Origin: a virus
DNA length: 23,607 bases
Virus record (IMG/VR): IMGVR_UViG_3300025543_000218
Location: 1 to 23,607 of that record
Reading direction: 5' to 3' (one strand)
Positions within the stretch are counted from its first letter, which is position 1. Each line of letters begins with the position of its first letter. Positions 3,357-23,607 of this stretch are shown piece by piece. Below the pieces are notes generated by a model, which did not search any database, was not told the origin of the DNA, and saw nothing but the letters and a program-made list of their open reading frames with translations. Position numbers and translations under genes: made by a program.

Positions 3357-4679
3357 CTAGAGAGACTTGCCAAAGCTTGCCTTGGCTCGTCCTAGTGCCT
3401 TGGGAGTCATGCTGCCCATGACCAGTCCATTCTTGAGTGCTTCACCCCAATAGCCAAAGGCATCAGCGAAGTGTGAACACCAGTCATGGACGACCACGTT
3501 AGTTACCCTACCATCTTTTTTGTCCTCGCGGTTGTGGTAGTTCTCCAGTGCATCAATCAGCCCGTCTTCAACATCCACTCGCTTATGGAAGAATATAGAG
3601 CTAAACATATCCTTCATGGAGCGTATGCGCTTCTCCTCAGCCCCAAAGCCAGCATTAGGTAGCACGACCACGTTCTTGAGTCCTGCGTCAAATAGTTTGG
3701 CTTGGAAGCTCATGTTGTCAGCACCTCGTGTGCGACCGTCATGTGGCAGGAAGTGTTGACCATAATTGTAGCCCTTGTCTAACATGTGAGCCACGCGCTC
3801 TGCTGTTGTCATGTTGAGATTAAAGTCACAGTCGATGACCTTGTATGTTAGATTGTGTTGATCCCTCGCCCAGTAGATGCACACAGTGTTCTCTGGAGAT
3901 CCCAGATCCCATGTCGTGTGGACTAGCTGACTGCCATCGTTGCCAAAGTCTAAGATGCGTCCTTGATCTCTCGCCTCGTTGATCTCCTTGGAGTAGATAG
4001 CTCCAGCCCTTGGGACATCGAAGTTACACTCCATCTCCTGTGAGTATGCGTCCTCGCCAATCTTGGCTCGTATCTCACCCAAGTCATCATCGGACACTAT
4101 GCCTGTCTCGGAAGCCTTGAGGACTAGCCCATAGCTGTCCTGTGGCTTCTCCTTGGCAGCCTGTAGGCTCTTGTAGAGGTTGCTGCGACCCTTGGGCGTT
4201 CCCATGCGGATATGCCAGCCCTTGTAATCTAACAGACATGGCAGGATGACATAGGTGAACGCTGACTGCGGTATGTCATCGTCCTCATCGCTGACCACGC
4301 CATCGAAGTAGAGTCCACGCATACGCTCGTAGTTCTCACCAGAGAATAGTCGGATCTCAGACCTGTTAGGAAATGTGATCTTGAGTTCACTGTGGTTGAC
4401 CACAATGTTAGGTATGTTAGCAGTGAAGGACACTAGGTAGCTCCAGCTTACGGATTTCGCTTGGGAGAGTGTCGGACAAATATAACTATACCTTAATGGT
4501 GCTGTGTCCATGCCCTTACGCTTGTGGGTCATAGCCTCCAGTATCAGCTTCTGGATCACCGCCACCGTCTTCCCTGCTCGCCTGTGGGCAACGATAGTCA
4601 TCCACCTCCGCTTGCACTGGAGGAACTCACGGAACGGAGCGCGAGGTCTGATCTCAATGTCGAGTGTCTTACTCTGCAT
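3357..4679 (-). CDS. terL: Terminase large subunit (ATPase and nuclease)
   Basis: TerL pumps DNA into the procapsid and cuts the concatemer. Counting from the upstream TTG at 4688, the motifs are: Walker A-like AHRRAGKT (34-41), Walker B-like strand 'YFDGVVSDEDD' (127-137), coupling motif GTP in 'RMGTPKGR' (161-168), and an RNase H-type nuclease half with 'TTWDLG' (D261), 'LPHDGR' (D317) and the end motif 'HDWCSHFADAFGYW' (401-414). The 440-443 aa length is normal. I chose ATG at 4679 (MQSKTLD); TTG at 4688 is the alternative. The gene starts inside the 3' end of TerS, the usual coupling. The doubled Asp run after the Walker B Glu is unusual but the core residues are present. Confidence 0.92.
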   Translation of the reverse strand: MQSKTLDIEIRPRAPFREFLQCKRRWMTIVAHRRAGKTVAVIQKLILEAMTHKRKGMDTAPLRYSYICPTLSQAKSVSWSYLVSFTANIPNIVVNHSELKITFPNRSEIRLFSGENYERMRGLYFDGVVSDEDDDIPQSAFTYVILPCLLDYKGWHIRMGTPKGRSNLYKSLQAAKEKPQDSYGLVLKASETGIVSDDDLGEIRAKIGEDAYSQEMECNFDVPRAGAIYSKEINEARDQGRILDFGNDGSQLVHTTWDLGSPENTVCIYWARDQHNLTYKVIDCDFNLNMTTAERVAHMLDKGYNYGQHFLPHDGRTRGADNMSFQAKLFDAGLKNVVVLPNAGFGAEEKRIRSMKDMFSSIFFHKRVDVEDGLIDALENYHNREDKKDGRVTNVVVHDWCSHFADAFGYWGEALKNGLVMGSMTPKALGRAKASFGKSL

Positions 4680-5046
4680 CGCCGCCAATGATGATTCGTG
4701 TGTTTACTTCCTGCTTCATGTCCACATCGATCTTATCGCTGTATTTCTTGGGTAGTATCTTGCTCATCACCCACTTGCGAGCATCAATCCGCAACCTGTC
4801 CCGCTGTGTATCGCCAGTGTCATTGTCAGCAATATCAACTATCTCCTCACCTAACCATTCAGCCTGTTCTTGCCGTGACTTCTCGTATTGCTCACGAAAT
4901 TCATCGTTAGTGTAAATGAATTTAAATACGTTCTGTGCTGCTGGAAGGTGCTTATCACTACATATTTTGCGTAGTGATTCACCAGTTGAGATGCGTGTAA
5001 GTATCTCAGCTTGAACAGCTTCAGTCATTTTGCTCGGTCTACCCAT
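4669..5046 (-). CDS. terS: Terminase small subunit
   Basis: The 125-aa protein begins 'MGRPSKMTEAVQAEILTRIS' with a helix-turn-helix-like N-terminus ('GESLRKICSDKHLP', about 32-45). The conserved run 'YEKSRQEQAEWLGEEIVDIA' and 'RDRLRIDARKWVMSKILPKKYSDK' identify the common terminase small subunit type that recognises phage DNA and loads TerL. It lies directly upstream of TerL and overlaps it by about 11 nt. Its ATG overlaps the 3' end of the GIY-YIG gene by 8 nt, so it depends on the same transcript. The leader AATTTACAAC before ATG has no Shine-Dalgarno sequence, so reinitiation after the upstream gene is likely. Confidence 0.88.
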   Translation of the reverse strand: MGRPSKMTEAVQAEILTRISTGESLRKICSDKHLPAAQNVFKFIYTNDEFREQYEKSRQEQAEWLGEEIVDIADNDTGDTQRDRLRIDARKWVMSKILPKKYSDKIDVDMKQEVNTRIIIGGDAE

Positions 5047-5575
5047 GTTGTAAATTATATTCGTTTAGTGATTCATTCTTGATCCAGCTAACATCAGACC
5101 CACTTAGCTCAAACCACTCACCTCTAAGCCTCTTGCTCTTAAATTTGTCGTGTAGCCAAGCCTCAAAGGCTGAGACTGCCTCAACCTTCCAGTTTAGAGT
5201 TATCATTGGGTCTTGGTGCTGTAGCGTCTTCTCTCTAGCTTTAGGTTTTCTAGACCTGCCTATCTTCCAGACATCGCTTACTCCGTGGTGCATTAAGTAA
5301 ATATAAGTTGAGGCATAGTTTATGCCCACCATCTTTCTGATGCTCTCCTTGGACTTGCCTTGTGGTTTGTTGAACTTAGAATGACGAGAGTCTACAAGCT
5401 CCTTTATTAACTTGACGGCTTGGATCTTATCACTATCGGAGACATCATCCCTTGATGCTACAGACACCAGTAAGCCAATGCGCTCAAGGTGAGTCATGAT
5501 CTTTCGATCTTGATCCTCCTTATGCACCAGCTTGTCAGCCTCAATTAGTGTAATTACTTTCTTTATGTTGCTCAT
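5039..5575 (-). CDS. GIY-YIG superfamily protein (T5orf172/Mug113-type)
   Basis: Counting from ATG 5575 (MSNIKKV, 178 aa), the C-terminal half holds 'YIYLM' (91-95, the GIY strand), 'WKIGRS' (103-108, the YIG strand) and 'FEAWLHDKFKSKRLRGEWFEL' (137-157). This order matches the T5orf172/Mug113 branch of the GIY-YIG nuclease fold. The N-terminal 70 residues are helical and charged, with no known domain visible. Members may be free-standing nucleases or inactive DNA-binding proteins; the key arginine (R107 region) and glutamate (E138 region) seem present, so activity is possible. A TTG upstream (5608) could extend the frame, but a strong promoter covers it, so I prefer ATG 5575. It is the first gene of the packaging operon, an unusual place for a nuclease; a role in packaging cleavage is speculation. 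Confidence 0.75.
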   Translation of the reverse strand: MSNIKKVITLIEADKLVHKEDQDRKIMTHLERIGLLVSVASRDDVSDSDKIQAVKLIKELVDSRHSKFNKPQGKSKESIRKMVGINYASTYIYLMHHGVSDVWKIGRSRKPKAREKTLQHQDPMITLNWKVEAVSAFEAWLHDKFKSKRLRGEWFELSGSDVSWIKNESLNEYNLQHG

Positions 5576-5578
5576 GCC

Positions 5579-5613
5579 AGTTAACAGTATAGTTTTTATA
5601 CCTAACAAGTCAA
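5579..5613 (-). promoter_or_regulatory. Strong sigma70-like promoter for the packaging/head operon
   Basis: On the minus strand TTGACT (5613-5608) and TATACT (5591-5586) are 16 bp apart; both match consensus in five of six bases. The predicted start near 5579 leaves about 4 nt before ATG 5575, so the mRNA would be almost leaderless. It fits the only gap between the nuclease gene and the GIY-YIG/terminase operon. Confidence 0.6.
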
Positions 5614-5652: not shown

Positions 5653-6133
5653 TTGCCCACAACCTGTGATCCAGTGCCAGTATGTCATCGGTGCGGATAA
5701 CTGTTAGGAGATCCTTGCGACCTTTGCGTTGGTAGAGATTGTAGAGTGCATCTAGTGGGCAGTCAACATACTCAAACTGGCACAGGCTCTTGGCTAACTC
5801 CTTCAGATCCTCACGCTTGACAATGAGGAAGTCATCCGCTCGCTCAAATGCTAAGTAGTCCAGCTTCTCAGCCAGCAGCCAGCCAACTCGACCAGCCACG
5901 TTGTTTAGCTCCAGCCACCTCCGTTCGTCCTGTGTGTCGGTGTCACCACGGCTGACTCGCCCCAGTGCCTTTACATCGAAAGTGCCGAAGCTCGTGACAA
6001 AGTCAATATGTTCGAACTGCTCCTGTCGAGTAGCTCGCCGCGCCTCTGGATCTCGCAGCTTCAGCAGAGCCTCAAACTCTGCCTCCACTGCTTGACCTCT
6101 ATTCCATGCTGGTGTCTTAGCGTAGAAGGACAT
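5645..6133 (-). CDS. Predicted PD-(D/E)XK-fold nuclease (162 aa)
   Basis: Residues 17-21 (EAEFE) supply an N-terminal acidic helix, 'HIDFVTSFGTFDVKALGR' (42-59) gives the core D44...D53-x-K55 pattern of the PD-(D/E)XK fold, and 'WLELNNVAGRVGWLLAEKLDYLAFE' (73-97) has the look of the strand-helix after the active site in restriction-type and Holliday-resolvase-type nucleases. No target or partner is visible. Small phage nucleases of this type may process replication intermediates or host DNA. Its start overlaps the end of the MarR-like gene by 17 nt, so regulator and nuclease are translated from one mRNA. I am fairly sure of the fold and unsure of the role. Confidence 0.6.
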   Translation of the reverse strand: MSFYAKTPAWNRGQAVEAEFEALLKLRDPEARRATRQEQFEHIDFVTSFGTFDVKALGRVSRGDTDTQDERRWLELNNVAGRVGWLLAEKLDYLAFERADDFLIVKREDLKELAKSLCQFEYVDCPLDALYNLYQRKGRKDLLTVIRTDDILALDHRLWAKS

Positions 6134-6365
6134 CTCGACCGTTTTCTGTTAGGGTGATTACAGTCTTCCGCCTGTCCAGCTTGCTTGGAACTCGCTTGGC
6201 TAGGTCTAGCTCCTCGAACCTGTCGATGATAGCTGTCAAGCTAACCTTTGATAGATTCTCGAAGGCTATCTGGGAGATTGTTAGATCCTCCTCCACTAGC
6301 CGTTCCAGTGCGTAAACTTCTCGTAATGTCTTTAGTCCTAGTTTTAGGTATTTTTTTGTATCCAT
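6117..6365 (-). CDS. Small MarR-type winged-helix regulator (82 aa)
   Basis: The protein reads like the DNA-binding core of MarR: helix-turn-helix 'TISQIAFENLSKVSLTAIIDRFEELDLAKR' (about 29-58), then the wing with the family signature 'DRRKTVITLTENGRDVL' (64-80). Full MarR proteins are about 140 aa and dimerise through N- and C-terminal helices; here these are nearly absent, so it is a minimal version. It ends inside the start of the nuclease gene and begins 1 nt after the 37-aa peptide gene. It may control the phage's own promoters (for example the dyad at 5612-5652) or host genes; this is inference. Confidence 0.65.
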   Translation of the reverse strand: MDTKKYLKLGLKTLREVYALERLVEEDLTISQIAFENLSKVSLTAIIDRFEELDLAKRVPSKLDRRKTVITLTENGRDVLLR

Positions 6366-6983: not shown

Positions 6984-7181
6984 TCAATTATCTTCAATTT
7001 CTTTTTCTGGGTGAATTATCTGGTCTGCCTCCATCAGCCCGTGACACCTGCCAAGCTGCCACTGCAGTCGATGGTTCTCATCCTTGAGTGGACACTCCCG
7101 TGTGCGGTGTGGCGCACCTGTGATACACCAGTCCTCCAGACCACTCTGTAGTCCTTTTTTATATGCTTCTGTTTTATTCAT
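6984..7181 (-). CDS. Hypothetical small protein with Cys/His residues (65 aa)
   Basis: Not recognised. The protein has C19, C30 and C46 with neighbouring His (H25, H47) in 'EDWCITGAPHRTRECPLKDE' (16-35) and 'GRCHGLMEADQ', which could bind a metal, though the spacing fits no zinc-finger family I know. The rest is helical and charged. It lies between the hexamer array and the small-gene promoter. The leader is an A-run (AAAAAAAATAACTT) without Shine-Dalgarno sequence. Codon structure and lack of overlap support a real gene. Confidence 0.6.
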   Translation of the reverse strand: MNKTEAYKKGLQSGLEDWCITGAPHRTRECPLKDENHRLQWQLGRCHGLMEADQIIHPEKEIEDN

Positions 7182-7201
7182 AAGTTATTTTTTTTGGATG
7201 A

Positions 7202-7434
7202 GGTTACAGGTCACGCTTCCTATATATAGGAGCGTAACCTTGTAACCACCTCTGCTGGATTCGGTTACGGTAACTTGTATCTAAATGTAACCTTGTAACC
7301 TCGTATGGCGCAAGCCTTGATTCTATATAGGTTTGAGCATGGTTACACTTTTGAAAATAGTTTTGTAACCTCTGTAACCTTTTCCAAAACATTTCTGTTA
7401 GAAAAACAGCTAGGTTACACTTTTTTTTGTAACC
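7202..7434. repeat. Ordered GTAACC/GGTTAC hexamer array (candidate origin iterons or operators)
   Basis: The 300-bp gap 7182-7481 has no convincing gene but contains eleven exact hexamers: GGTTAC at 7202, 7263, 7341, 7413 and GTAACC at 7234, 7242, 7287, 7295, 7365, 7374, 7429 (left-hand positions). They form four units. The first three are GGTTAC, a spacer of 26, 18 and 18 bp, then GTAACC twice with 2-3 bp between; the fourth is GGTTACA, 8 bp, TGTAACC. Extra features: the palindrome CCTATATATAGG at 7219-7230 inside unit 1, GTTACGGTAAC at 7264-7274, and T/A-runs. Position just after the primase-helicase gene suggests an origin. Operators or folded mRNA hairpins are alternatives. The hexamers fall in changing codon phases, so no protein repeat explains them. 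Confidence 0.9.
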
Positions 7435-7481
7435 ACTATAAGTCATTTGTCTTCATGGTGTTAAGGTGTATTTTGCTCTTT

Positions 7482-9497
7482 TTAGAAGGGTTCATACATT
7501 TTGTATCCGTTCGAGGTTTTCATGATGACTTCGTTGTCCTTCCACTGGGTAATATACTTCTTAGCCAGAGCATCAGTCACCTCACAGACCCTCACTATGT
7601 CCCTCACTAATGCTCCGTGCGTCCACTCAGCCAGTGTTGACTCCTTAGCCACATCTGCTGCCATACGACTCATTGTCTCGACACGCTCACGATGCTTCTG
7701 CTCCGACTTGCTCTCAGATATCTCAACAAAGCCCTCCTCGAAGTCGCACCACTTCCACTGCACACCATGACCCTTACACACCTCACGCTTACGTGAGAAC
7801 CTCGTATAGGTCTCCCTCACGCCCTCGGAGTCAGTATCTATCTGTAGCACAACCTTGCTCTTACGCTCAAGCTGAGAGCCAAGGTGACCACGGGACTTGG
7901 TCTCACTGTTGGGGTTCAAGTGTAACACACCAAGGATGGCAACGTCATGCTTCTTAGCCATTGACATCCACTCAGCAGCCAATGCCACCGCAGACTCTTG
8001 ATCGTTAACATCTGATGACAGGTCAGCATAGCCGTCTAGGAACAGAGCCACAATGTCTGGATTCTTCTCTAGAACCACCCTCGCAGCTATCTGTGCGTCC
8101 TTAGAGCTAAAACCAGCAAGACTGTATGCCAGCAACCTCTCCTTGGGCGCACCTGCCCTCATCATAGCACTATGAAAGTCCTCTGCATCCTGCTCAAAGT
8201 CAAGATAGGCAATCTTGCCAGTGATAGGCTTATCAATAGTGAAACCAAGAGTCCTCTCACCTGTGAACATGGTGTGCATTGCAGCAGCCTTGGCTTGAGT
8301 CTTTCCAGCCTTGGACTGAGCCACAAGCGTGTGGATGTTCTGCGTCCAAAGAATACCAGTCCCGTCTAGACCTAAGAGTGGTGGTTGATGTGGTGGTGGT
8401 GACAACTCATCAAAAGCGCACTCCTGCATCCGTTCCCACACAGATGCATCAGCACTGTCCTCAGCACTCTCTGGTAGCAACTCAGCAAGCTTCTGTGGGT
8501 CTACGGTCTCATGCCTAGCATCACCATTGATCCACAGCACACGCTGGAAGCCGTTGCTCTTGTCGCTACGGTGAACAGCACCGAGCCTTGTAAGGTGTGC
8601 GGGGTTAAGCACCGCGCCATCACCACCAAGATCGACAAACATCTTACGCAGAGCGTGTATATCTTTGACACCCTTGGCAGAGAACGTAGCGTGGTAGGAT
8701 TTGCCAGCACTGAATAGCACTGAAACCAATGGCAGATGCCTAGCCAGATATCGGATAACACCAAGCTGGTGAAGGCGGGGCATCTTATCAGCTTCAAATG
8801 TAATGACATCAAGTGTCTCATTAGCGAACTCTAAGCCCCTGCCACCACTGGCATACTTAAGCTTGCCGTTAACCTTCTCGACTCGCTCCTCTGTTGTCAG
8901 CGTCCTACGCATAGGATTAGCAATCAACTGATCGTAGCCTTCTTCAACGATATTGTCTGCCATCATTAGCCAGCTAGAGGTGTGAGCTATCATACCTTGA
9001 TATCTGTTACCAATGTAGACAGGCTTGTCCACACCCTTAAAGAACTCAGCTAGGAAGTCTGAGACGTTATCAATCTCTGGGGTATCTCCCAGCTTGGAAA
9101 TCAATTCCTCCTCGCTCAGTGGCTCAATGCTCCTGTGCTTAAGGTTGGACTTGACATCCTCAATGTCAGTCTCAAATAAACGCCAGTCGGATCTCTTGAT
9201 AGGAGTATCTGAGCCAGTCCCGTAGATGAGATCTAATGCTCGCTCTACCTCGCCGCCTACTATGTCTCGGTGTGCATCGGTCTTATATAATACCTCCGCA
9301 GCTTGCTTTATGGTAAAGCCAGAGTCCTGTAGTGCGCGTGATGCTCCACACAGGTTGCTGTTGAGGTTCTCCATCAGTGCAGTGCTAAGATATTTCTGTA
9401 TAGAGGATGACACTTCTAACATCCTCTTCCTTGTGTCGTCTGTTAGTTTATCAATGTTCTTAAACTCGCAGACATCTTGTAGTGATATTTCGTTCAT
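7482..9497 (-). CDS. AEP primase-like / RecA-like (RepA-type) helicase fusion
   Basis: This 671-aa protein probably supplies priming and unwinding for phage replication. The middle part resembles archaeo-eukaryotic primases: 'FEADKM' (234-239, acidic motif I), 'SAGKSYHATF' (263-272, motif II with its His) and 'HLTRLGAVHR' (301-310). The C-terminal half is a RecA-fold ATPase of the RepA/AAA_25 kind: Walker A AQSKAGKT (393-400), Walker B 'DIVALFLDGYADL' (481-493) and 'LGVLHLNPN' (522-530). Residues about 625-671 look like a winged helix. In AEP motif I the first acidic residue is Glu rather than Asp, so primase activity could be altered. The gene starts 5 nt after the XRE gene and ends beside the hexamer array. 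Confidence 0.75.
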   Translation of the reverse strand: MNEISLQDVCEFKNIDKLTDDTRKRMLEVSSSIQKYLSTALMENLNSNLCGASRALQDSGFTIKQAAEVLYKTDAHRDIVGGEVERALDLIYGTGSDTPIKRSDWRLFETDIEDVKSNLKHRSIEPLSEEELISKLGDTPEIDNVSDFLAEFFKGVDKPVYIGNRYQGMIAHTSSWLMMADNIVEEGYDQLIANPMRRTLTTEERVEKVNGKLKYASGGRGLEFANETLDVITFEADKMPRLHQLGVIRYLARHLPLVSVLFSAGKSYHATFSAKGVKDIHALRKMFVDLGGDGAVLNPAHLTRLGAVHRSDKSNGFQRVLWINGDARHETVDPQKLAELLPESAEDSADASVWERMQECAFDELSPPPHQPPLLGLDGTGILWTQNIHTLVAQSKAGKTQAKAAAMHTMFTGERTLGFTIDKPITGKIAYLDFEQDAEDFHSAMMRAGAPKERLLAYSLAGFSSKDAQIAARVVLEKNPDIVALFLDGYADLSSDVNDQESAVALAAEWMSMAKKHDVAILGVLHLNPNSETKSRGHLGSQLERKSKVVLQIDTDSEGVRETYTRFSRKREVCKGHGVQWKWCDFEEGFVEISESKSEQKHRERVETMSRMAADVAKESTLAEWTHGALVRDIVRVCEVTDALAKKYITQWKDNEVIMKTSNGYKMYEPF

Positions 9498-9502
9498 TGT
9501 CG

Positions 9503-9721
9503 TTATACCAGTTCGAAGTCACTTAAAGACCAAGGGGAGAGGGTTTCATAGATGTGTTCTGCTAGATGGACTGACGGGGAGTGATTCCCGTGACGGATGT
9601 TGAGGATGGTGGACGGTGCAACGCCGCACTTTGCAGCGATAATGTAGTCTGGGCGATTCTCTAACAGGATTAGATACTGGATCGCGTCCAGTAGATGTGA
9701 TTTAGTTGGTTCGTTACTCAT
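9503..9721 (-). CDS. XRE-family (Cro/CI-type) HTH regulator (72 aa)
   Basis: I start it at ATG 9721 (MSNEPTKS); a TTG at 9760 lies in the -35 box of the promoter and is unlikely. Residues about 22-40, with 'IAAKCGVAPSTILNIRHGN', form a clear lambda-repressor-type helix-turn-helix; the rest is a short helical end without a dimerisation or peptidase domain. It is the first gene of the leftward unit, 5 nt before the primase-helicase, and stands divergent to the early plus-strand operon. That layout is that of a phage switch repressor. Its promoter leaves about 4 nt of leader, like the leaderless cI transcript of lambda. Whether the phage is temperate cannot be decided here. Confidence 0.72.
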   Translation of the reverse strand: MSNEPTKSHLLDAIQYLILLENRPDYIIAAKCGVAPSTILNIRHGNHSPSVHLAEHIYETLSPWSLSDFELV

Positions 9722-9724
9722 AAC

Positions 9725-9760
9725 AGGGGTGTTTATACGCGGGTTTGATATTTGTGTCAA
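9725..9760 (-). promoter_or_regulatory. Near-consensus sigma70 promoter for the repressor/primase unit
   Basis: On the minus strand TTGACA (9760-9755, perfect) and TATAAA (9737-9732, five of six) are 17 bp apart. The expected start near 9725 leaves about 4 nt before ATG 9721. This is the best promoter match in the window. Confidence 0.75.
9745..9760. promoter_or_regulatory. Dyad overlapping the leftward -35 box (operator candidate)
   Basis: TTGATATTTGTGTCAA is a 16-bp imperfect dyad (TTGAxA N4 TxTCAA; five of eight base pairs symmetric). It covers the -35 hexamer of the leftward promoter, where an HTH repressor would block its own gene. Confidence 0.35.
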
Positions 9761-9815: not shown

Positions 9816-10268
9816 ATGAAACGAAAACACAAACGAGCAGGAGTATTTAAGGTTGGTGAAGATACAATTATCACAAGCAGACCTTTATTAGATTTGCCAG
9901 AGGATCATAAATTTGTCAGACAGAAACACGCCATCGAAGGCAGATGGCAAAAAGCAGAAGATAAAGGCGTTAAAATAATGCAGATATTAAACCATGAGAC
10001 AGCACTGGCTGTGGTCAAAAAATATATACCAGAAATGGAGCAAGCAGCCAAAGATGCAAAGGAGGGCGATTCGGTATACGGTTGTCAAACATTCTTATTT
10101 AAGGATTCAACATTCACCACTGTAATAGTAATGCACAATCCACCAGAGGAAGATGACCCAGACAATCTTGAGAGCGGCTGGGGAGCAGCCATAGTTAAGG
10201 GCGACTCAGTTTATGCTGAGAAGTATTCTAAATACGCCCAAAAAAGCATAACCCAAATGGCAGACTAA
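9816..10268 (+). CDS. Hypothetical early protein (150 aa), first gene of the plus-strand operon
   Basis: Not recognised. The N-terminus is strongly basic (MKRKHKRAGVFKVG). Residues about 56-87 ('QILNHETALAVVKKYIPEME') look helical, and 'TFTTVIVMHNPPEEDDPDN' (106-124) combines a strand with an acidic loop. No catalytic motif is visible. Base composition is more A-rich than in the nuclease genes after it. It is first behind the rightward promoter, and its stop TAA shares a base with the ATG of the DUF2800 gene (TAATG), so both should be translated together. Early position suggests an immediate-early host-interaction or replication accessory protein, without further proof. Confidence 0.75.
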   Translation: MKRKHKRAGVFKVGEDTIITSRPLLDLPEDHKFVRQKHAIEGRWQKAEDKGVKIMQILNHETALAVVKKYIPEMEQAAKDAKEGDSVYGCQTFLFKDSTFTTVIVMHNPPEEDDPDNLESGWGAAIVKGDSVYAEKYSKYAQKSITQMAD

Positions 10269-11329
10269 TGAACACGACAACAGAAAACCACGAAGACAGA
10301 AGCCACGCCAAAGCATCACCAAGCGGATACCGTAGGTGGATGAATTGTAGCGGCTCACTCAATCTAGAGCAGAAGCTTAAAGATAAAGGACTCATCCCAG
10401 AGTTTGAAGAATCATCCCCTGCGGCAGCGGAGGGAACTAGGCTACATGAAGTAGCCGAGAAAGTTCTAACAGGTGAGACGCTCTTATGTCCAACAGAAGT
10501 AAAACCTTACGTAGATTACTGTCGGGACAACACCCCAGAGGGTGCAGAAACATTTATTGAGGAGCGCGTCCCCTTGTTTTACTCTCGCACTGAAACTGGC
10601 TCGGTTGACTACGCATGGCGCAAGGACGATGTCCTCCAGTGTGTAGACCTCAAGACTGGACGCATCAAAGTGGATTCGATGGGTAACCTTCAGCTACTGG
10701 TGTATGCAATGGGTCTAGTGACTCCTGCCGTCAAGGAGCTACGCCTAACAATCTTCCAGTATGATACTCCATACACTTGGAACATCTCCATCCAAGATGC
10801 TAACGAGCTATGCCACGACCTCATGGAAGCAGCTAGGAAGGCACTAGACAAGAGTAACACGGATCTAACAGCATCCACCGATGCGTGTCGCTGGTGCAGG
10901 TGTAAACCGTATTGCCCAGAATACACTGGAGGAATAATGAGCCTGTTAGAAGACACCAACATGAAAATAATATCAGACGAACAGCTAGTCAAATTGATGG
11001 CAGAGAAAAAAAAGATTCTAACACTTCTCGACAACGTGGAAAAAGTGTTGTTTGATCGTGCCAGTGCTGGCGAGACCATCAACGGAGTTCATCTCACCAC
11101 TGGAAGAAAACAGAACAAACAATGGATCAAAGGCGTAGAGCCAGTTGAAGAAATGATCAAACTCGGTCTTCACCTCGACCAAGTTGTTAAGACCACACCG
11201 ATCACGCCGACACAAGCAATGAAACTAACAGATGTCCCAGACGAACTATACGAGCAGCCCGATGGCAAGCTCAAGCTAGAGGTCGATGACATCACTGAAG
11301 TCCTCAACGAACTAGAGGATCTCCACTAA
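10268..11329 (+). CDS. DUF2800 family PD-(D/E)XK nuclease with Fe-S-type cysteines (Cas4/AddB-like)
   Basis: The 353-aa protein begins with the family's typical 'SHAKASPSGYRRWMNCSGS' (12-30). Motifs of a RecB/Cas4-type nuclease follow: 'EGTRLHEVAE' (55-64, His 60), 'GSVDYAW' (111-117, Asp 114), 'DLKTGR' (127-132, the D-x-K core) and 'QLLVYAMGL' (142-150). C27 with C207, C210, C212 and C216 ('DACRWCRCKPYCPEY', 206-220) give the four-cysteine pattern of an iron-sulfur cluster seen in AddB and Cas4. In phages this family sits next to DUF2815 and is thought to work in DNA replication or recombination, probably as a 5' end-processing exonuclease. The C-terminal 130 residues are a helical extension. 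Confidence 0.82.
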   Translation: MNTTTENHEDRSHAKASPSGYRRWMNCSGSLNLEQKLKDKGLIPEFEESSPAAAEGTRLHEVAEKVLTGETLLCPTEVKPYVDYCRDNTPEGAETFIEERVPLFYSRTETGSVDYAWRKDDVLQCVDLKTGRIKVDSMGNLQLLVYAMGLVTPAVKELRLTIFQYDTPYTWNISIQDANELCHDLMEAARKALDKSNTDLTASTDACRWCRCKPYCPEYTGGIMSLLEDTNMKIISDEQLVKLMAEKKKILTLLDNVEKVLFDRASAGETINGVHLTTGRKQNKQWIKGVEPVEEMIKLGLHLDQVVKTTPITPTQAMKLTDVPDELYEQPDGKLKLEVDDITEVLNELEDLH

Positions 11330-11337
11330 ACAATCTC

Positions 11338-11362
11338 GCTTACCAGTAATCTTCTGGTGAGC
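11338..11362 (+). promoter_or_regulatory. Hairpin between the nuclease and ssDNA-binding protein genes
   Basis: GCTTACCAG and CTGGTGAGC form a 9-bp stem with one G-U wobble and a 7-nt loop. No U-run follows, so it is not a typical terminator. It may be an RNase processing site or may set relative expression of the next gene, whose leader (AAATAATACC) has no Shine-Dalgarno sequence. Confidence 0.4.
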
Positions 11363-11395
11363 AGAACTAAACAAAATACAAAATAAAATAATACC

Positions 11396-11956
11396 ATGAA
11401 AATAGTAATTAAAAATGCACGACTTAGTTTTAACTCAATCTTCAATGCGGAGTCCCGCTTCGAAGGTGATCCTAAGTTTTCCGCAATGATGATCCTTGAT
11501 CCTAAAAGTGAGGACGGCAAAGCCAACCTCGCTAACATCAAGTCGGTCATTCGTCAACTGGAGCAGGAGAAGTTGAGGGGCAAAGAACTGCCAATCGACA
11601 AGCTCCCACTTCAAGACGGCAACAACGATGAAGGAGAAGGCAAGTACACAGGCTGGCAAGACCAGATCATTGTGAGTGCCGCCTCTAAGAATCGTCCCGT
11701 TGTAGTCGGTCGTAAGCGTCAACCTGTTGCTGAACAAGATGCCGAGGACGTTCCCTACAGTGGCTGCTACGTTAACGTAGTGGTGGACGCATGGGCAATG
11801 GATCATCAGAGCTGGGGTCAGAGAGTTATCTTTGAACTCAAGGCAATCCAATTCAGCAAAGCAGGTGAGCCATTCGTTGCATCTGGAGTCGATATTAAAA
11901 ACGACTTCGATGAGCTTGATGTAGAGGAGGTAGCCTCATCCGTATTTGACATGTAA
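11396..11956 (+). CDS. DUF2815 family ssDNA-binding protein
   Basis: The 186-aa protein starts 'MKIVIKNARLSFNSIFNAES' and continues with 'GDPKFSAMMILDP' (24-36), 'GSGxx'-free middle 'GKYTGWQDQIIVSAASKNRP' and 'YSGCYVNVVVDAWA' (121-134), then 'GVDIKNDFDELD' and a hydrophobic end 'SSVFDM'. This is the DUF2815 pattern, an OB-fold single-stranded-DNA-binding protein family of phage. The acidic tail ending in Phe-Asp-Met is like the partner-binding tip of bacterial SSB. It would coat ssDNA made by the helicases and the DUF2800 nuclease next to it. Family neighbours normally include a DNA polymerase A gene right after it; here an 81-bp structured gap follows instead. Confidence 0.82.
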   Translation: MKIVIKNARLSFNSIFNAESRFEGDPKFSAMMILDPKSEDGKANLANIKSVIRQLEQEKLRGKELPIDKLPLQDGNNDEGEGKYTGWQDQIIVSAASKNRPVVVGRKRQPVAEQDAEDVPYSGCYVNVVVDAWAMDHQSWGQRVIFELKAIQFSKAGEPFVASGVDIKNDFDELDVEEVASSVFDM

Positions 11957-11967
11957 TTCACCCTAAA

Positions 11968-12022
11968 GCCTCTCACCCCAACCTTACTCCACCATGTGGA
12001 CGCAGTTGCAGGGGTGAGGGGC
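11968..12022 (+). promoter_or_regulatory. Two-tier GC-rich hairpin with a 7-codon open frame
   Basis: GCCTCTCACCCC (11968-11979) pairs with GGGGTGAGGGGC (12011-12022), 12 bp with one wobble. Inside its loop TCCAC (11988-11992) pairs with GTGGA (11996-12000) around CAT. An ATG at 11994 opens MWTQLQG and stops at 12015-12017 within the right arm, so a translating ribosome would melt the outer stem. No U-run follows. It may be a terminator/attenuator or a translation control element between the ssDNA-binding protein gene and the next gene. Confidence 0.55.
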
Positions 12023-12037
12023 ATTACACTACAAGAC

Positions 12038-12370
12038 ATGACAACTATATTAGCATATTGGAGAGATAAGACTTTTACAATACTACAGGCAAGAACTATG
12101 TGGGAACTGTTTGAACAGTTAGATTGTGAAGGAGATCCATCAAGCCCATGCTTACGCATACTGCCCAGCGGATTTTCTATTGCGGTCAACAGAAAGCATC
12201 ACCCATCATTAATGCACACCGAATTAGATAGTAGTATAGCCAAGTTACCCAAGATAAAAATAATGGATATATACAAGGCAATTGACGACAGGTTTGGTGA
12301 TAATACGGAAGCATCTAATGTTTGGCATTACGATAAGACTATTAAACAAGCAATGAAATTAGTCTCTTGA
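12038..12370 (+). CDS. Hypothetical protein (110 aa) between DUF2815 and VRR-NUC genes
   Basis: Not recognised. I start it at ATG 12038 (MTTILAYWRDKTF); a GTG at 11996 would add 14 residues but would put the hairpin in the coding region. The protein has 'LQARTMWELFEQLDCEG' (16-32), 'LPSGFSIAVNRKHHPS' (42-57) and a helical C-terminus; no catalytic pattern is clear. The leader ACACTACAAGAC shares ACACTACAA with the starts at 14943 and 15004. It occupies the place of the family A polymerase gene of related gene sets. Its stop TGA overlaps the TTG start of the next gene. Confidence 0.65.
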   Translation: MTTILAYWRDKTFTILQARTMWELFEQLDCEGDPSSPCLRILPSGFSIAVNRKHHPSLMHTELDSSIAKLPKIKIMDIYKAIDDRFGDNTEASNVWHYDKTIKQAMKLVS

Positions 12371-12642
12371 GAGAATCAGCCATTGAACAAGCAATATGCC
12401 GATACGCCAAAAGTGTCGGCATTTTGCAGTTCAAGTTCACATCACCTAACAGGGCGGGAGTTCCCGACCGTATCTTTCTCTTCCCAGACAGGAAGGTAAT
12501 ATTTATGGAGATGAAGACACCGAAGGGCAGACTCTCCAGACTACAGGAGAACGAGATACGCATCATCAAGAAGTATGGACATAGTGTATACGTGGTTGAC
12601 TCGGTCGAGCAGGGGAAAGAAATACTAGATAGTCACCTATGA
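12367..12642 (+). CDS. VRR-NUC domain nuclease (91 aa)
   Basis: This is a stand-alone VRR-NUC: 'ESAIEQAICRYAKSVG' (3-18) is the opening helix, 'GVPDRIFLF' (31-39) gives the PD motif and 'FMEMKTPKGRLSRLQ' (46-60) the E-x-K with the following Lys-Gly-Arg and Gln. Phage VRR-NUC proteins are structure-specific nucleases, in some cases Holliday junction resolvases, and are typically found next to an SNF2-like helicase, as here. The start is TTG (12367), within TTGA of the previous stop, because no ATG or GTG is available between the upstream stop and the domain. It ends in ATGA overlap with the next gene. Confidence 0.88.
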   Translation: MRESAIEQAICRYAKSVGILQFKFTSPNRAGVPDRIFLFPDRKVIFMEMKTPKGRLSRLQENEIRIIKKYGHSVYVVDSVEQGKEILDSHL

Positions 12643-13055
12643 ACTCGACTGGTGACATAGCAGAGATGGCGTTTATGTTAGAAGCAGCAAAACGCGGCTA
12701 CACCGTCTTCATACCATTCTCTCATGACACCAAGGTTGACATCATTATAATGAAGGCAGGAGAAAAACCGATCACATGCCAAGTAAAGAAGGCTACCCTG
12801 CAAAAGAATCCTCCACACCTTATGCAGACATGGAAGGCTTTACTGGGTTCAGCCAAGTCATCTGTTAGGGTATGCACGGAAGACAACCCAAGATTTACAA
12901 AGTATCAGACAGGAGCATTCGACATGCTGGTCATGTTTATCCAAGAGCAAGACCGATTTGTATTCCACAGGCTGGAAGACGTTGTCGGCAAAGCTGGGGT
13001 GAGGTGGAACAAAAAGCACCCATCCAACAACTGGGAAAAATTCAATGAACTTTAA
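12639..13055 (+). CDS. PD-(D/E)XK endonuclease-like protein (PDDEXK_11-type, 138 aa)
   Basis: The arrangement 'STGDIAEMAFMLEAAKRGYTVFIP' (3-26), 'DTKVDIIIM' (30-38) and 'ITCQVKKAT' (45-53) is that of the short PD-(D/E)XK family seen in intron and prophage endonucleases: E9, D34 and Q-x-K with Gln in place of the usual Glu. The N-terminal 'GDIAE...A..rGy.V..P' is very characteristic. It probably cuts or binds branched or foreign DNA; a Holliday-resolvase-like role beside VRR-NUC would be partly redundant. ATGA coupling to VRR-NUC and an 11-nt overlap with the helicase gene place it inside the replication/recombination operon. Confidence 0.7.
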   Translation: MNSTGDIAEMAFMLEAAKRGYTVFIPFSHDTKVDIIIMKAGEKPITCQVKKATLQKNPPHLMQTWKALLGSAKSSVRVCTEDNPRFTKYQTGAFDMLVMFIQEQDRFVFHRLEDVVGKAGVRWNKKHPSNNWEKFNEL

Positions 13056-14442
13056 ACCATACGACTACCAAGAGCCAATGATTGAGCATCTAGTCAGCAA
13101 TGATCACGCTGCTCTTTTCGCTGGAATGGGTTTGGGTAAGACAGCCGTCACGCTGGAGGCACTGCACCGTGTCGGAGGCAGGGCACTTGTCCTAGCACCA
13201 CTGAGGGTAGCCAGCATGGTCTGGAGCGACCAAGTCAAGAGGTGGGGCTACGACTTCAAGGTAGCCAACCTACGCACCAAGGAGGGCATGAAGGCATGGG
13301 AGGATGGCAGTGCAGACATCTACACAGTCAACCTAGAGATGGTTAGCCGCGGTATCCTTGAGAAGCTCATGCGTAAGGACATGCCAGTTGACACGCTCAT
13401 CGTGGACGAGCTATCCCTGCTGAAGAACGGAGGCTCTAAGAGAACCAAGACGGTCATCAAGCATCGCACGAAGTTCACCAGAGTGTGGGGTCTAACAGGC
13501 ACTCCGTCTCCCAACTCACTCATAGACCTCCACGCACAACTCAAGGTAGTTGATGGTGGTGAGCGACTGGGCAAATTCATAACCAAATTTAAGGAGCGAT
13601 TCTTTGATAGCTGCTACATGGGCTGGACGTTCACCCCCAAGAAGGGAGCGGCAGAAGAGATCCAGAAGCTCATCAGTGACGTATGCCTGTCGGTTAGGTC
13701 AGAAGACCATCTGGATATACCAGACTGCATCGTAGAGGACGTGAACGTAAAGCTGCCAGACGGTGTCATGAAGAAGTATAAGGAGCTTGAGAAGCACCTC
13801 GTCATCCAGCTACAGGACAACGTGGTCGATGCTCAGAGTGCTGCTGTCCTCGTCAACAAGCTTCAGCAGTTCACGGCTGGGCATGTATACGATGAAGATG
13901 GCGAGACATTAGCCGTCCACACTGCAAAGCACAAGGCACTCGCCAAGGTTCTATCCAAGGAGCGTCCTGTGCTGGTCTTAACTCGTTATAAAAGTGAGAT
14001 GCAAGCACTCCTAGAGGCGTTTCCACAGGCACAGGCATTCGATGAGAAGCGCATGGACGACTGGTGTGCTGGCAAGATCCCAGTCTGGATCGCAAACCCA
14101 GCCAGCCTATCTCACGGAATCGACCGCATCCAAGACTCATGCTCTAACATCGTGTGGATGTCCCTAACATATTCACTGGAACAATACGAGCAAACAAACG
14201 CACGTATCCTCCGCACGGGACAGAAAAAATCCTCAACCATCACACGGGTAATGGCTGAGGAGAGTATCGATTGGGCAGTGGCTACTGCTCTGGAGGGTAA
14301 AGGAAAAAATCAAAGCTCACTGCTTGAGTCAATCAAGATCCTCCAGCGTGCTAATTCCATTGAACACAAAAGCGATCCGAAAGTTTCAGAACCTTCAGAT
14401 GGAAGTCATGATCCTCTTGACTCCTTATTTGGACTCTCTTAA
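13045..14442 (+). CDS. SNF2-like superfamily 2 helicase/translocase
   Basis: The 465-aa protein has the motifs of SF2: 'PYDYQ' (5-9, Q-like motif), GMGLGKT (27-33, motif I), 'VLAPLRV' (49-55, Ia), DELS (121-124, motif II, replacing DEAH), TGTPSPN (151-157, III), 'VLTRYKSE' (IV) and 'LEQYEQTNARILRTGQKK' (VI, close to the SNF2 'Q..aR.hRiGQ'). Phage members with the VRR-NUC domain next door are thought to remodel forks or branch points during replication and recombination. The C-terminal tail after about residue 440 is Ser/Asp-rich. The last 92 nt overlap tail to tail with the DnaA domain IV-like gene on the other strand. Confidence 0.88.
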   Translation: MNFKPYDYQEPMIEHLVSNDHAALFAGMGLGKTAVTLEALHRVGGRALVLAPLRVASMVWSDQVKRWGYDFKVANLRTKEGMKAWEDGSADIYTVNLEMVSRGILEKLMRKDMPVDTLIVDELSLLKNGGSKRTKTVIKHRTKFTRVWGLTGTPSPNSLIDLHAQLKVVDGGERLGKFITKFKERFFDSCYMGWTFTPKKGAAEEIQKLISDVCLSVRSEDHLDIPDCIVEDVNVKLPDGVMKKYKELEKHLVIQLQDNVVDAQSAAVLVNKLQQFTAGHVYDEDGETLAVHTAKHKALAKVLSKERPVLVLTRYKSEMQALLEAFPQAQAFDEKRMDDWCAGKIPVWIANPASLSHGIDRIQDSCSNIVWMSLTYSLEQYEQTNARILRTGQKKSSTITRVMAEESIDWAVATALEGKGKNQSSLLESIKILQRANSIEHKSDPKVSEPSDGSHDPLDSLFGLS

Positions 14443-14644
14443 TAGCGGCGTAGGCATACTGGCTATTGCGCCTACCTAGAAGGGCAGCGATCTTGTCTTT
14501 AGCTAGGTAATCTCTGAGCAGGAACGCACACACGTAACGTGCAGAACTGATGTCCCTACCTACCTTACCATTACGGTCTACGATGTCCATGGGATCTACC
14601 CCAAACTCCGCTGCTGCCTCTTCTATTATTGTCTGTATTTTCAT
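14351..14644 (-). CDS. Stand-alone DnaA domain IV-like DNA-binding protein (97 aa)
   Basis: The pattern 'QTIIEEAAAEFGVDPMDI' (4-21), 'SARYVCAFLLRDYLAKDKIA' (34-53) and 'LLGRRNSQYAYAAIKRVQ' (55-72) is that of the C-terminal DnaA domain (basic loop, then the helix ending in the RDH..V..A signature, here RNSQYAYAAI). No AAA+ domain is present. Such solo proteins may bind DnaA-box-like sites, to help or block initiation at the host or phage origin. Its stop (TAG at 14353-14351) is inside the helicase gene, giving a 92-nt convergent overlap. It is coupled to the upstream 100-aa gene through ATGA. Confidence 0.68.
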   Translation of the reverse strand: MKIQTIIEEAAAEFGVDPMDIVDRNGKVGRDISSARYVCAFLLRDYLAKDKIAALLGRRNSQYAYAAIKRVQIRSQEDHDFHLKVLKLSDRFCVQWN

Positions 14645-18848: not shown

Positions 18849-21800
18849 TTAGTCAATCTTCAACTCTCGTATCAGATATTTTTGGATACCCTTCTCGCTA
18901 TCCTTTTGCTGCTTTAGGAACTCTTTGCGATCTTCTGGCTTCATCTCTAGGATTATCTCACGGGATCTGCTGATGATCTCCTCTCGCCTTTGACTATCAA
19001 TGGATCGGATCATTCTCCTATCCTTCTCATCTTTGGCTTTCTTCATCTCATCCTTGGTATCAGCGTGAACGTATGACGTAACCTTTTTGATGCGCTTCTC
19101 GTAAATATTAAATGTGTCTTCCTTGTTGAGTCCTTTAGAGAGAGCATTATTCCAGAACCCCATAGCGTCCCTGCCAATGTTAGCTGCCTGTGACAGCACC
19201 GCTGTCTGTGGTGCTACGGCAGCAAGACCCTGTATGCCACGCATTACTGTGTCGGCATTCTCACTAGCAGACTTATCTTCCCACTTGCCAGCTACAGTTA
19301 GTAACTGCTTTGAACCAGTCATTGATCTAACCAGTGGGTTACTAGTTGATGAGAATACATCTTGATCAAAACCATATCGAACTGCCATTGCCCACGCCTC
19401 GCCAGCTACAGGGACACCAGACATTGAGTCAGCAAAGATGTTCGCTATTAGTTTCTTGCCATCAGTTAGATCTTCGATGAACTTCTCCTCTGCATCGTCA
19501 CCCTCACCGAAGCCTCTAAACATAGCACCATACAATGCTCCTACTGCGTGGATGAAGCTATTAACTATAACCACTTGAACGATAAGTTGTTGTGCTGCCA
19601 GTGACTTACTCTGAACACCTTTACCAGTTAGTAGCTTTCTGATAGCCATTGCATTGATAGCCATCATCTTTCTCACCTCTGACTGGAACATCACAAGGAA
19701 CTGAGCCTGTGGCATCCTTGTGTTTTCTGCTAGAGACTTACTAAGTCTGTCTGTTGGCTGGGCAAATCTAGCCATGAGATCATCGACATAGTCTAGTGCT
19801 TGAGCTTTAGCATCAGCCTCTGACACATCGTTAGCCCTCAACTCTCTGATCTTAGCTGTGTAAGCTAATGCCATTGTCATGTTAGACCCCGTATCAGCGA
19901 TGTTAATACCTTGGATACCCTTCTCGGCTAACCTCTCGCTAGTGGAGAATGTTAGGTTTCCAGCCTTGCCCCCTTGGAGTGCATACCTAGTTGCTACGGT
20001 CGCACCCATCTTGAATCTGCGCTGGAATGTCTCAGAGTTGTAAACCTCCTTGGCTTCAGCAAATAGCTCTGGTCTCAAACCCTTTATTAAATATTTAGCC
20101 TCAACACCCAGTGCCACATTGAATCCAGCAGCGAGGTTCTTCATGATAGTGGACAGTTTCAAGCCAAGCACGCCAAGTGCCATGCCCTTACCTATGGATC
20201 TCCACACCCTGTCAGATTCTATCTGGGCTTGAGCTACAGCAGCACCTTGAGTCTCAATGTTCTCAAGCCACTTGTTCATGTTCTTAAGGAAGCCGTCACC
20301 CTTGGCTCTGAGTATTCCGTCTTGCACATCCTTGTCGCGCAATACCCCAGCCCACTTACGCAGAACCTCTGCATGAGTTTTCCAGAATGCGTTCTGCATG
20401 ATGTGGTGGTTAAACACGTTCACGGAGTTCTGTCTCTTGGGACGAGCGTTGTGATTGGTACGCATCTTGTGTGCCGATGGTCGCTTGCTTACACCAGCAA
20501 TCTCTATGCCGTCCATCTGTAAGCTCGTCTCTGGCTTCCCAACGTGTTCAAACACGGCAGGGAAATAGTTCTCAACGGTAGCCATAGCCAGACCATACTC
20601 GCTCCTGTGAAGTGACTCGGTCTCTGGTGTCATCTCACGCAGCTTACCTTGCATCCACAAGCCAAGCTCCTTAACGTCATCGTCAAGAGCCTCGTCTACC
20701 TCCTCACGATACTGCTCATCGTGACCAGTCTTGTCATACTTATCCTTAAGGTCTAACTGTTGGACGGCGAGCCAGTCTTTTAGTAAATCTAACTGAGACA
20801 TCTTGCCAACACTTACCCTGTCGCCAGTGTTGCGTTCAATGGTGTGTCTGAAAAGTTTTTTGCCAGTAGGAGAGAAGCCCTCTGCTATTTGATTCTGGTA
20901 TTCAATATACATCTGGTTGAACTCATCCCTAGATATGTTCTTGTCTCTAATGTCTACCCTGTCCAGTTCTGGGTCTGCTTGAAGCTGCTGGTATGCTTGG
21001 TCTAACTCTGCCGCATTGGCTGCAACCTTGTAGTTATACATCGTGCTGATGGTAACCTTACTGCCCCACTCTACACTTTTAGCTAGAGCGTTAAGTCTGG
21101 CTTGCACTCTGGCAGTCTTGTTAGCACCCTTGATGCCGAAGATGTTAGAGAACACCTTCTTCATTTCTTCCTTGTGTTGGAGTTGCTCCCACTCAAAAGC
21201 GTTAGAAGCTCTGCGGAAATCATCTGCCATCTCCTTGATAGTTGAACCTTCACCACCCTGCATGTCTTCACGGAGCATGTCAGTGATCTGATAGAAACTA
21301 ACAAGCTCACGGGCGAATGACTTAGCCACTGCCTCCTGCTCATTCGCGGTATTGGTTTCACCTTGAGACTTAAATAGCTTGTTCAAGCCAGTTAGTATGT
21401 TGGTGATCTTTCCCTCCTTCCAAGCCTTACGCTCACTAAGGACAGACCTCCACTCACTGCGACCCTCGTCCCAGTTGGTCTGCATGAGTCTCTTCATCAT
21501 CGTTAGCCTGTTAGAGTCGGCGTTAGTGATGTCGGCAAACATCTCGTAGACGTATGCCACGTCCTCATGCTCTTGGATCTCGTCCACTGTTGGCTCTTCG
21601 ATCTTATCTAACTTGACGCGCTCCTGCTGCGCTGCCAGTCCAGCCTCGTCTGGTGACATCTTGACAGCCTTACTTGCAGCCTCGGCTATGCGGTGACCAA
21701 CAGCACCCAGCACACTTTGACCAGTGTCGGATGCCTTCTGCTTGCTTTTAGGTTGGCTACTCTTAATGAGCTTGCTTACATCAGCACGTAACTCCTTACG

Positions 21801-23607
21801 TAAATAGTTCTCCAGCGCGGTATCAACCTTGTCTAGTCTGCTGGCTACATACTTTGATATTCCCTTGCCAGTCTTGAACTCTGACATCTTCTTCATCGTG
21901 CCTAGCTTGCTGCGGATCTCTGGTGGTAGCACCTTAGAGATAGCCTCAATCTGTGCCACGCTGGCGATGATGAACTCACGCTCGTCCATGTTCCTCTCAG
22001 CCTCGCGCATGGACTCGGCAGTGACACCACCGTAGGCGATCTGCTTCTTGTAGATACGCTCACGCACCTTACGCAGACGACTAGCCATGTCCTTGAATAT
22101 CTCTATACGGGAGTCTGGGTCACGCATGAGGGCGTTGATCTTCTCCATCACTGAGTCCTCTGCTGGGGCTAGTGAGAAGGATGTTTGCTCATTAACCAAA
22201 TTGTTTATTTTCCCTTGAATGCGGGACTTACCATAGGCTGATGTAGTGGCTTCTAATTCAGATCTCAAATCCTTAATCTGAACTTCTACTGATGGTGTCG
22301 TTATTATAACGACTGGTATCTTATCAATCCCAGCATCCTTTGCGGCTAACGCTCTATTTCTGCCATCTTGAGAGCCTTTATACTTATCTATATATGGCAA
22401 GGGAAATTTATCACCCTTGCCCATTGCCTTGGCATACTCTTTTCTACCCTCGTCTTCTAGCCGATTGGACTTCAACCAACTTTCATAACTGCCACCAAGG
22501 CGACCATCAGTAGCCTCCCACGCCTCCTTGAGATACTGGTCTGGAGACATTAACTGAACATAGCTTGTCTTAGCATCAATAGATTTATCGCCAGTAGTCT
22601 CCAGAAAGTTTTCCATGTGTCCAGACTGCTTTGCCTCTGCAATGGAAAAACTTATCTCATCCCTGCCAGCATCGAACCTCTGGCTCAGTGGGATCACGTT
22701 GCCGTCTGAGTCGTAGGTTACGGGATCGGCTGACTTGATTCCCTCTGGCGATAACGCAACATAACTAACCTCCACTTTATCACCCTCAACCCTGTTACCA
22801 TAAACTAATGTTTCAACACCAAAAGATCTTATCAATTCGGCAGCATCTTCATCTGTTTTAATAAAATCATCCAATGCTTTTATCTCTGCATCGGTTTGCT
22901 TATTCTTTTCCTGTATGGAAACCCCTTTGTCGGTTGCAACACGCGATGGAAAATTGGGAACTTTATTAACCAGTATTTGATGCCTCCTCTCCACCTCTGC
23001 ATCTGGAAGTTGAGATATGGTGTCTTGATCTGTAAAGTATGAGTTAGGGTCTAGTCTGGCAGCGAAAAGAATTTGCCGAGACCTCTCTTTTGAAAAGTTA
23101 AATGTGTCAACAGTAGCACCCATTGGACTCTTAAGGAAAACCTTCTGCATTCCTTTAAGTCCAGACTTTGTTCCAGACCTCTCTCTGGCTTGTTCCTCTG
23201 TGCCAAAATGAAAACCAAGCTCCCTAACATTGAACACATCAAAAATCAATCCAGACTTTTTCTTTGAAGAACCATCGTATGCAGAGCTTCCGTGCCATGC
23301 CTCCGTTTCATACCCAGCCGCCTTAGCAGCCTCGTCCACCATAGCCTGTGCCTTGGTGGTGTCACCTGCCTCAACCGCTGCTAGGTAGTCAGCGTCTTGG
23401 GCTGGAGTGATGGAGAAGGATGCCGTAGCCACCTTCCTTCCGTTCTCCTCCTTGATGGTGATGTCCTTGCCATCGAAGATCACGTAGTTGTATGTGCCTT
23501 CGCCAGCTTTTCTGCTAGTGCCATCCAGATACTTGATGCCCTTGATGCCTACGGAAGCCATAGCTTCTGAGGCAGCCTTGATGTCTGCATCTCTGTAATC
23601 ACTGATG
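18849..23607 (-). CDS. Giant internal virion / polyvalent protein with ART-like and ParB-like domains, partial
   Basis: The frame runs past the right edge: fifteen more codons (ISDYRDADIKAASEA) precede the first Met at 23561, so at least 1585 residues exist here. Numbering from that Met: 'GIKGIKYLDG' (5-14) ends one polyvalent-type domain; 'AWHGS' (88-92), 'LGFHFGTEEQA' (115-125) and 'VYGNRVEG' to 'PLSQRF' (253-296) look like an ADP-ribosyltransferase-type polyvalent domain; 'YVQLMSPDQYLKEAWE' (334-349) and 'QDGRNRALAAKDAGIDKIPV' (398-417) are ParB-nuclease-like. Long coiled regions and a hydrophobic segment (IVQVVIVNSFIHAVGALYG) follow. SFSI/SFSL repeats mark the domain joints. Beside the tail fibre gene, it is probably injected with DNA, with enzymatic N-terminal domains acting in the host. 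Confidence 0.72.
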   Translation of the reverse strand, partial: ISDYRDADIKAASEAMASVGIKGIKYLDGTSRKAGEGTYNYVIFDGKDITIKEENGRKVATASFSITPAQDADYLAAVEAGDTTKAQAMVDEAAKAAGYETEAWHGSSAYDGSSKKKSGLIFDVFNVRELGFHFGTEEQARERSGTKSGLKGMQKVFLKSPMGATVDTFNFSKERSRQILFAARLDPNSYFTDQDTISQLPDAEVERRHQILVNKVPNFPSRVATDKGVSIQEKNKQTDAEIKALDDFIKTDEDAAELIRSFGVETLVYGNRVEGDKVEVSYVALSPEGIKSADPVTYDSDGNVIPLSQRFDAGRDEISFSIAEAKQSGHMENFLETTGDKSIDAKTSYVQLMSPDQYLKEAWEATDGRLGGSYESWLKSNRLEDEGRKEYAKAMGKGDKFPLPYIDKYKGSQDGRNRALAAKDAGIDKIPVVIITTPSVEVQIKDLRSELEATTSAYGKSRIQGKINNLVNEQTSFSLAPAEDSVMEKINALMRDPDSRIEIFKDMASRLRKVRERIYKKQIAYGGVTAESMREAERNMDEREFIIASVAQIEAISKVLPPEIRSKLGTMKKMSEFKTGKGISKYVASRLDKVDTALENYLRKELRADVSKLIKSSQPKSKQKASDTGQSVLGAVGHRIAEAASKAVKMSPDEAGLAAQQERVKLDKIEEPTVDEIQEHEDVAYVYEMFADITNADSNRLTMMKRLMQTNWDEGRSEWRSVLSERKAWKEGKITNILTGLNKLFKSQGETNTANEQEAVAKSFARELVSFYQITDMLREDMQGGEGSTIKEMADDFRRASNAFEWEQLQHKEEMKKVFSNIFGIKGANKTARVQARLNALAKSVEWGSKVTISTMYNYKVAANAAELDQAYQQLQADPELDRVDIRDKNISRDEFNQMYIEYQNQIAEGFSPTGKKLFRHTIERNTGDRVSVGKMSQLDLLKDWLAVQQLDLKDKYDKTGHDEQYREEVDEALDDDVKELGLWMQGKLREMTPETESLHRSEYGLAMATVENYFPAVFEHVGKPETSLQMDGIEIAGVSKRPSAHKMRTNHNARPKRQNSVNVFNHHIMQNAFWKTHAEVLRKWAGVLRDKDVQDGILRAKGDGFLKNMNKWLENIETQGAAVAQAQIESDRVWRSIGKGMALGVLGLKLSTIMKNLAAGFNVALGVEAKYLIKGLRPELFAEAKEVYNSETFQRRFKMGATVATRYALQGGKAGNLTFSTSERLAEKGIQGINIADTGSNMTMALAYTAKIRELRANDVSEADAKAQALDYVDDLMARFAQPTDRLSKSLAENTRMPQAQFLVMFQSEVRKMMAINAMAIRKLLTGKGVQSKSLAAQQLIVQVVIVNSFIHAVGALYGAMFRGFGEGDDAEEKFIEDLTDGKKLIANIFADSMSGVPVAGEAWAMAVRYGFDQDVFSSTSNPLVRSMTGSKQLLTVAGKWEDKSASENADTVMRGIQGLAAVAPQTAVLSQAANIGRDAMGFWNNALSKGLNKEDTFNIYEKRIKKVTSYVHADTKDEMKKAKDEKDRRMIRSIDSQRREEIISRSREIILEMKPEDRKEFLKQQKDSEKGIQKYLIRELKID

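Follow-up and report, generated by a model that had tools for sequence, protein, structure and literature searches.

A candidate iteron-type replication origin directly downstream of a phage primase-helicase gene

The 23.6-kb IMG/VR virus contig IMGVR_UViG_3300025543_000218 (positions 1 to 23,607, the whole stretch of DNA that was analyzed and is referred to below as the window) contains a dense array of the hexamer GGTTAC and its complement, GTAACC, at positions 7202 to 7434 (no strand assigned), raising the question of the function of so many copies of one word in the gap behind a primase-helicase gene. Based on its sequence and on comparisons with other loci, we conclude that this region is very likely an iteron-type replication origin located directly 3' of the primase-helicase gene, the product of which probably binds the array.

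The array comprises eleven exact hexamers, with GGTTAC starting at positions 7202, 7263, 7341, and 7413 and GTAACC starting at positions 7234, 7242, 7287, 7295, 7365, 7374, and 7429, versus just 7 more copies in the remaining 23.4 kb. In 2,000 dinucleotide-preserving shuffles of the gap (positions 7182 to 7481, 300 bp), the maximum for any hexamer was 6 copies, and in the 300-bp stretches of the window clear of the array, no hexamer exceeded 5 copies. A head (GGTTAC), a spacer, and two tails (GTAACC) follow each other in this order in three units, with head-to-first-tail spacers of 26, 18, and 18 bp and tails that are 2, 2, and 3 bp apart (8, 8, and 9 bp between their starts). The fourth unit, GGTTACA-N8-TGTAACC, occupies positions 7413 to 7434. 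The count of eleven hexamers and the ordered units, including the 18-bp spacer common to two of them, had been reported in an initial sequence-only reading and proved exact, as did the perfect palindrome of the first unit, CCTATATATAGG, which lies in the first spacer at positions 7219 to 7230 (no strand) and for which no evidence of a role was found. The array also contains two copies with one mismatch each, namely, GGTCAC (7209) and GGTAAC (7269). An 80-amino-acid open reading frame (ORF) spans the array on the minus strand (7204 to 7446), and nothing was found to support its status as a gene.

Two AT-rich stretches, neither assigned to a strand, are candidate unwinding elements. The strongest, at positions 7155 to 7201 (81% A+T), is outside the array, on its left flank, and the 60-bp stretch from 7149 ranks among the most AT-rich of the window. 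The alternative candidate, at positions 7380 to 7412 (73% A+T), is a spacer inside the array that separates the last unit from the rest. Cumulative GC skew, which had been suggested as a check, follows gene direction in the window without any turn at 7.2 to 7.4 kb and speaks neither for nor against an origin.

The array is bounded by the stop of the primase-helicase gene (position 7482) and by position 7181, at which the following leftward ORF starts; it begins 47 bp past the primase-helicase stop and extends about 50 to 280 bp beyond it. The primase-helicase, which is the proposed initiator, is a 671-residue protein (7482 to 9497, minus strand) containing an AAA_25 RecA-like ATPase domain (E=4.4e-12) and weakly matching families of phage DNA primases; domain searches of this protein revealed no VapE, DUF5906, or DUF927 match. 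Its C terminus has a predicted H-H-H-E-E order (low confidence) and aligns weakly to an HTH_IclR-type region of another array-bearing locus (L096), and AlphaFold models of the protein and of its C terminus were weak. This weak evidence fits a winged-helix-like fold for the C-terminal ~75 residues. The 65-residue ORF that closes the gap on the other side (6984 to 7181, minus strand) had no Pfam or PHROG match.

A replication and recombination cassette is located at positions 10268 to 14442 (plus strand) and encodes a DUF2800 exonuclease, a single-stranded-DNA-binding protein, VRR-NUC and PDDEXK proteins, and an SNF2 helicase. This cassette is partly common to phi7401PVL, in which VapE, an iteron gap, VRR-NUC, and SNF2 are consecutive. 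Comparison with Caulobacter phage Jess A and Pseudomonas phage Psp6 revealed that the gene order helicase, gap, small ORFs, TerS, and TerL also occurs in other array-bearing phages. In the window, the small terminase subunit (TerS, Sf6 type) is encoded at positions 4669 to 5046 (minus strand). The adjoining gene (5039 to 5608, minus strand) encodes a GIY-YIG-like protein with a MUG113/T5orf172 match and is possibly an insertion, since a terminase relative (L005) has a small-terminase-like ORF directly at that place. A 1,570-residue protein without any significant Pfam domain is encoded at positions 18849 to 23561 (minus strand).

Viral contigs were scanned for two direct GGTTAC hexamers followed by an inverted one and, as a control, for the same pattern with the hexamer written backwards. 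Both scans returned at least 120 stretches; raw match counts are therefore meaningless, and clustering alone is informative. Among the matches listed, at least seven hexamers in 300 bp were found in 70 of the 120 GGTTAC stretches, with 7 up to 13 copies per 300 bp, versus 3 of the 120 backward-hexamer stretches. Same-strand neighbors were mostly 8 or 9 bp apart among the matches listed, to be compared with 8, 8, and 9 bp in the window, a spacing that is not by itself independent evidence, since the scan pattern forces one direct pair per locus. The nearest large proteins (51 scanned) were mostly replicative, with overlapping matches to the families VapE (17), DUF5906 (14), Prim-Pol (6), DUF927 (5), and AAA_25 (2). 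AAA_25 was present in 4 of the 48 array records tested. In three loci (L012, L078, and L096), the GGTTAC array begins either within the 3' end of the AAA_25 gene or immediately after it; in a further one (L029/L220), the AAA_25 match is ~1.3 kb before its array. In L096, the array (7387 to 7576) falls inside the helicase ORF, toward its 3' end, and encodes a Gly-Tyr-Ser repeat tail. For 19 of the 44 loci with at least nine hexamers, searches with four Pfam models established a link to a helicase family, and PHROG identified a helicase and a primase in L085 and L099, respectively; the other strong arrays were at contig ends or had no family match that settled the assignment.

The search of related phages for the array that the sequence-only reading had called for showed that many other virus contigs carry the array; no close relative covering the gap was found. 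Terminase relatives (61 to 97% identity) stop short of the gap or carry another helicase: L005 begins inside the ORF neighboring the gap, and L006, the terminase of which is 61% identical, has a DnaB-type helicase and no array, which is consistent with the array and the primase-helicase traveling together. Searches of viral contigs with single sequences of the primase-helicase, the exonuclease, and the 65-residue ORF revealed no relatives, and distant helicase matches in fecal phages (L215 to L219) are devoid of the array. In L005 (positions 100 to 1100), inspection by eye indicated that several short genes begin with AACACTACAATG or a similar sequence and lack an obvious Shine-Dalgarno sequence, which hints that translation starts may be unusual in the host.

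In order to obtain a sample not chosen by hexamer, 80 loci were fetched from bacterial genomes by their VapE protein alone, using a query alignment derived from array-bearing loci. Together with seven named phage loci and the present record, these afforded 81 usable regions downstream of the gene, of which 47 had a hexamer occurring six or more times within 500 bp, compared with 3 for the in-gene control. The hexamer varied by lineage (GTCCCA, GGTTAC, GTCCAA, GGTGAC, GGTAAC, and others). In 41 VapE loci, the first and last copies were at medians of +6 bp and +248 bp from the stop, respectively, and same-strand neighbors were mostly 9, 10, or 8 bp apart; both the position and the 8- to 10-bp direct-repeat spacing match those of the array of the window. 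We give this geometry the greatest weight as evidence, since the loci were chosen without regard to spacing or hexamer. Arrays in this place behind the gene, with a fixed geometry, recur next to replicative helicases from several families. Comparison of the lineages suggests a modular rule in which the hexamer changes and the spacing and place stay. A partial Mantel test relating the iteron to the C-terminal domain in the VapE loci gave tiny effects for both the C terminus and the core. Three Companilactobacillus VapE loci (L166, L170, and L173) combine closely similar VapE C termini with differing iterons (TGATAC, TGAGAC, and ATGTAC) and form a natural series for tracing which residues read the hexamer.

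Literature searches yielded no description of GGTTAC origins. The closest precedent is provided by the origins of SaPI and PICI satellites, which are located immediately 3' of the initiator gene (pri-rep) with iterons around an AT-rich region; for PICI EcCICFT073, the gene plus ori replicates a plasmid (PMC6092414). The array of the window similarly comprises multiple short iterons directly downstream of a helicase gene, with AT-rich stretches nearby. However, the candidate initiator is the AAA_25 primase-helicase of a phage rather than a satellite Rep, the VapE-type initiator helicase of the satellite and VapE loci is a feature that this protein lacks, and the classical PICI layout, with two iteron sets around one AT-rich center, is merely approximated. 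In SCCmec, the putative origin of Cch2 consists of AAGTG iterons located in the gap that follows the helicase gene and bound by the C-terminal domain of the helicase (PMC7581432). The position of the iterons is the same, whereas the helicase belongs to another family, the iterons are three 5-nucleotide repeats instead of eleven hexamers, and the primase is separately encoded. Yersinia phage YeP4, phi7401PVL, Caulobacter phage Jess A, and Pseudomonas phage Psp6, like the phage studied here, have hexamer arrays behind a primase or helicase gene but differ from it by a VapE-type helicase (DUF5906 type in Psp6) and, in the cases of YeP4, phi7401PVL, and Psp6, by a hexamer other than GGTTAC. In Psp6, the gap that follows the primase gene has an AT-rich stretch flanked by GGTAAC sets; in Jess A, six GGTTAC hexamers start at the end of the primase gene.

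Based on these sequence comparisons, the origin proposed here, with its AAA_25 initiator, is presumably a variant of the SaPI/PICI/VapE kind, the layout of which is widespread in phages. The initial proposal of an iteron origin tied to the primase-helicase was strengthened by the same place, the same spacing, and often the same hexamer beside helicases elsewhere, as well as by the SaPI/PICI precedent. Its companion claims, that the arrangement was undescribed in phages and that the dyads act as alternate stems, were not supported; concerning the former, the arrangement was found here in many phages, and an iteron origin 3' of rep is established in satellites.

By analogy with the anatomy of the SaPI/PICI origins, the primase-helicase is expected to bind to the GGTTAC array, to melt an AT-rich stretch, and to prime synthesis. 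Binding to the iterons would probably involve the winged-helix-like C-terminal domain, and several molecules would sit side by side on the direct repeats spaced by 8 to 9 bp, on both strands. The protein would then assemble as helicase rings and open the adjacent AT-rich stretch, which may be either that at 7155 to 7201 or that at 7380 to 7412. The primase part would make the first primers, such that replication would start at the array.

Alternatively, the array could be an origin to which a different phage protein binds and brings in the helicase, in the manner of the O protein of lambda. The window encodes three candidates, an XRE-like protein (9503 to 9760), a MarR-like protein (6117 to 6365) matching MarR_2, and a 97-residue protein (14351 to 14644, minus strand) matching the C-terminal helix-turn-helix of DnaA, i.e., domain IV (E=2.2e-5), the last two matches being below the curated cutoffs. 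We consider this possibility distinctly unlikely, since, in unrelated phages with differing neighbors, such arrays remain associated with the helicase gene and since DnaA boxes (consensus TTWTNCACA) are absent from the entire window.

The same recurrence behind helicase genes, irrespective of the gene that follows, argues against a multisite operator offering repressor or activator sites for a leftward promoter upstream of the 65-residue ORF. A promoter-like sequence on the minus strand (7464 to 7435) is directed through the array, but this is a weak consensus hit, and eleven sites over 233 bp far exceed usual operators, making this explanation highly improbable.

We regard as extremely improbable that the array acts in the leftward transcript as an RNA folding switch in which a head can pair with either of two tails, as had been offered as an alternative in the sequence-only reading. 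The minus strand does fold far better than its shuffles (z = -7.3), but any set of inverted repeats would do so. An apparent excess of head/tail flank complementarity vanished against a within-locus control, because each locus has its own extended iteron. In a within-locus comparison covering 71 loci, flank complementarity was not higher for neighboring inverted hexamers than for nonadjacent ones (1.68 versus 1.56 of 3; p=0.20), indicating that pairing is apparently not what is kept. The constant feature is direct pairs at 8 to 10 bp rather than stems, and no Rfam family was found at the gathering score. Finally, a packaging (pac) or terminase recognition site is scarcely credible. In favor of this reading, the array and a small terminase gene are separated by no more than a few hundred base pairs in a number of loci (Terminase_2 matched 14 of 77 small neighbor proteins). 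Against it, TerS is 2.2 kb away in the window, arrays hug the helicase stop (median of 6 bp in the VapE sample), and an array is also present in a satellite phage locus (L214) with no annotated terminase nearby.

Within the reading of the array as an origin bound by the primase-helicase, the iterons might have a second role. The PrimPol of phage NrS-1, which is a primase that also has a helicase-like domain, initiates DNA synthesis at a site of its own, 5'-TTTGGTTA-3' (PMC8718748), which is present in just two copies in the NrS-1 genome (PMC7102993). This site and the hexamer of the window have GGTTA in common, and no full match to TTTGGTTA is present in the array; NrS-1 PrimPol recognizes a single-stranded template, whereas the array consists of duplex iterons. 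The occurrence of arrays with VapE, DUF5906, DUF927, and AAA_25 helicases, combined with the resemblance of the hexamer to TTTGGTTA, raises the possibility, which we consider unlikely, that the iterons also serve as start sites for the primase, with one word seating the helicase and then, once single stranded, directing the primase.

Since the layout is common to many phages and to several helicase families, the likely origin of such phages may be readable from sequence by looking behind the primase-helicase gene. The site at which replication starts, and the protein that binds it, would thereby become a directly testable question for many uncultured phages.
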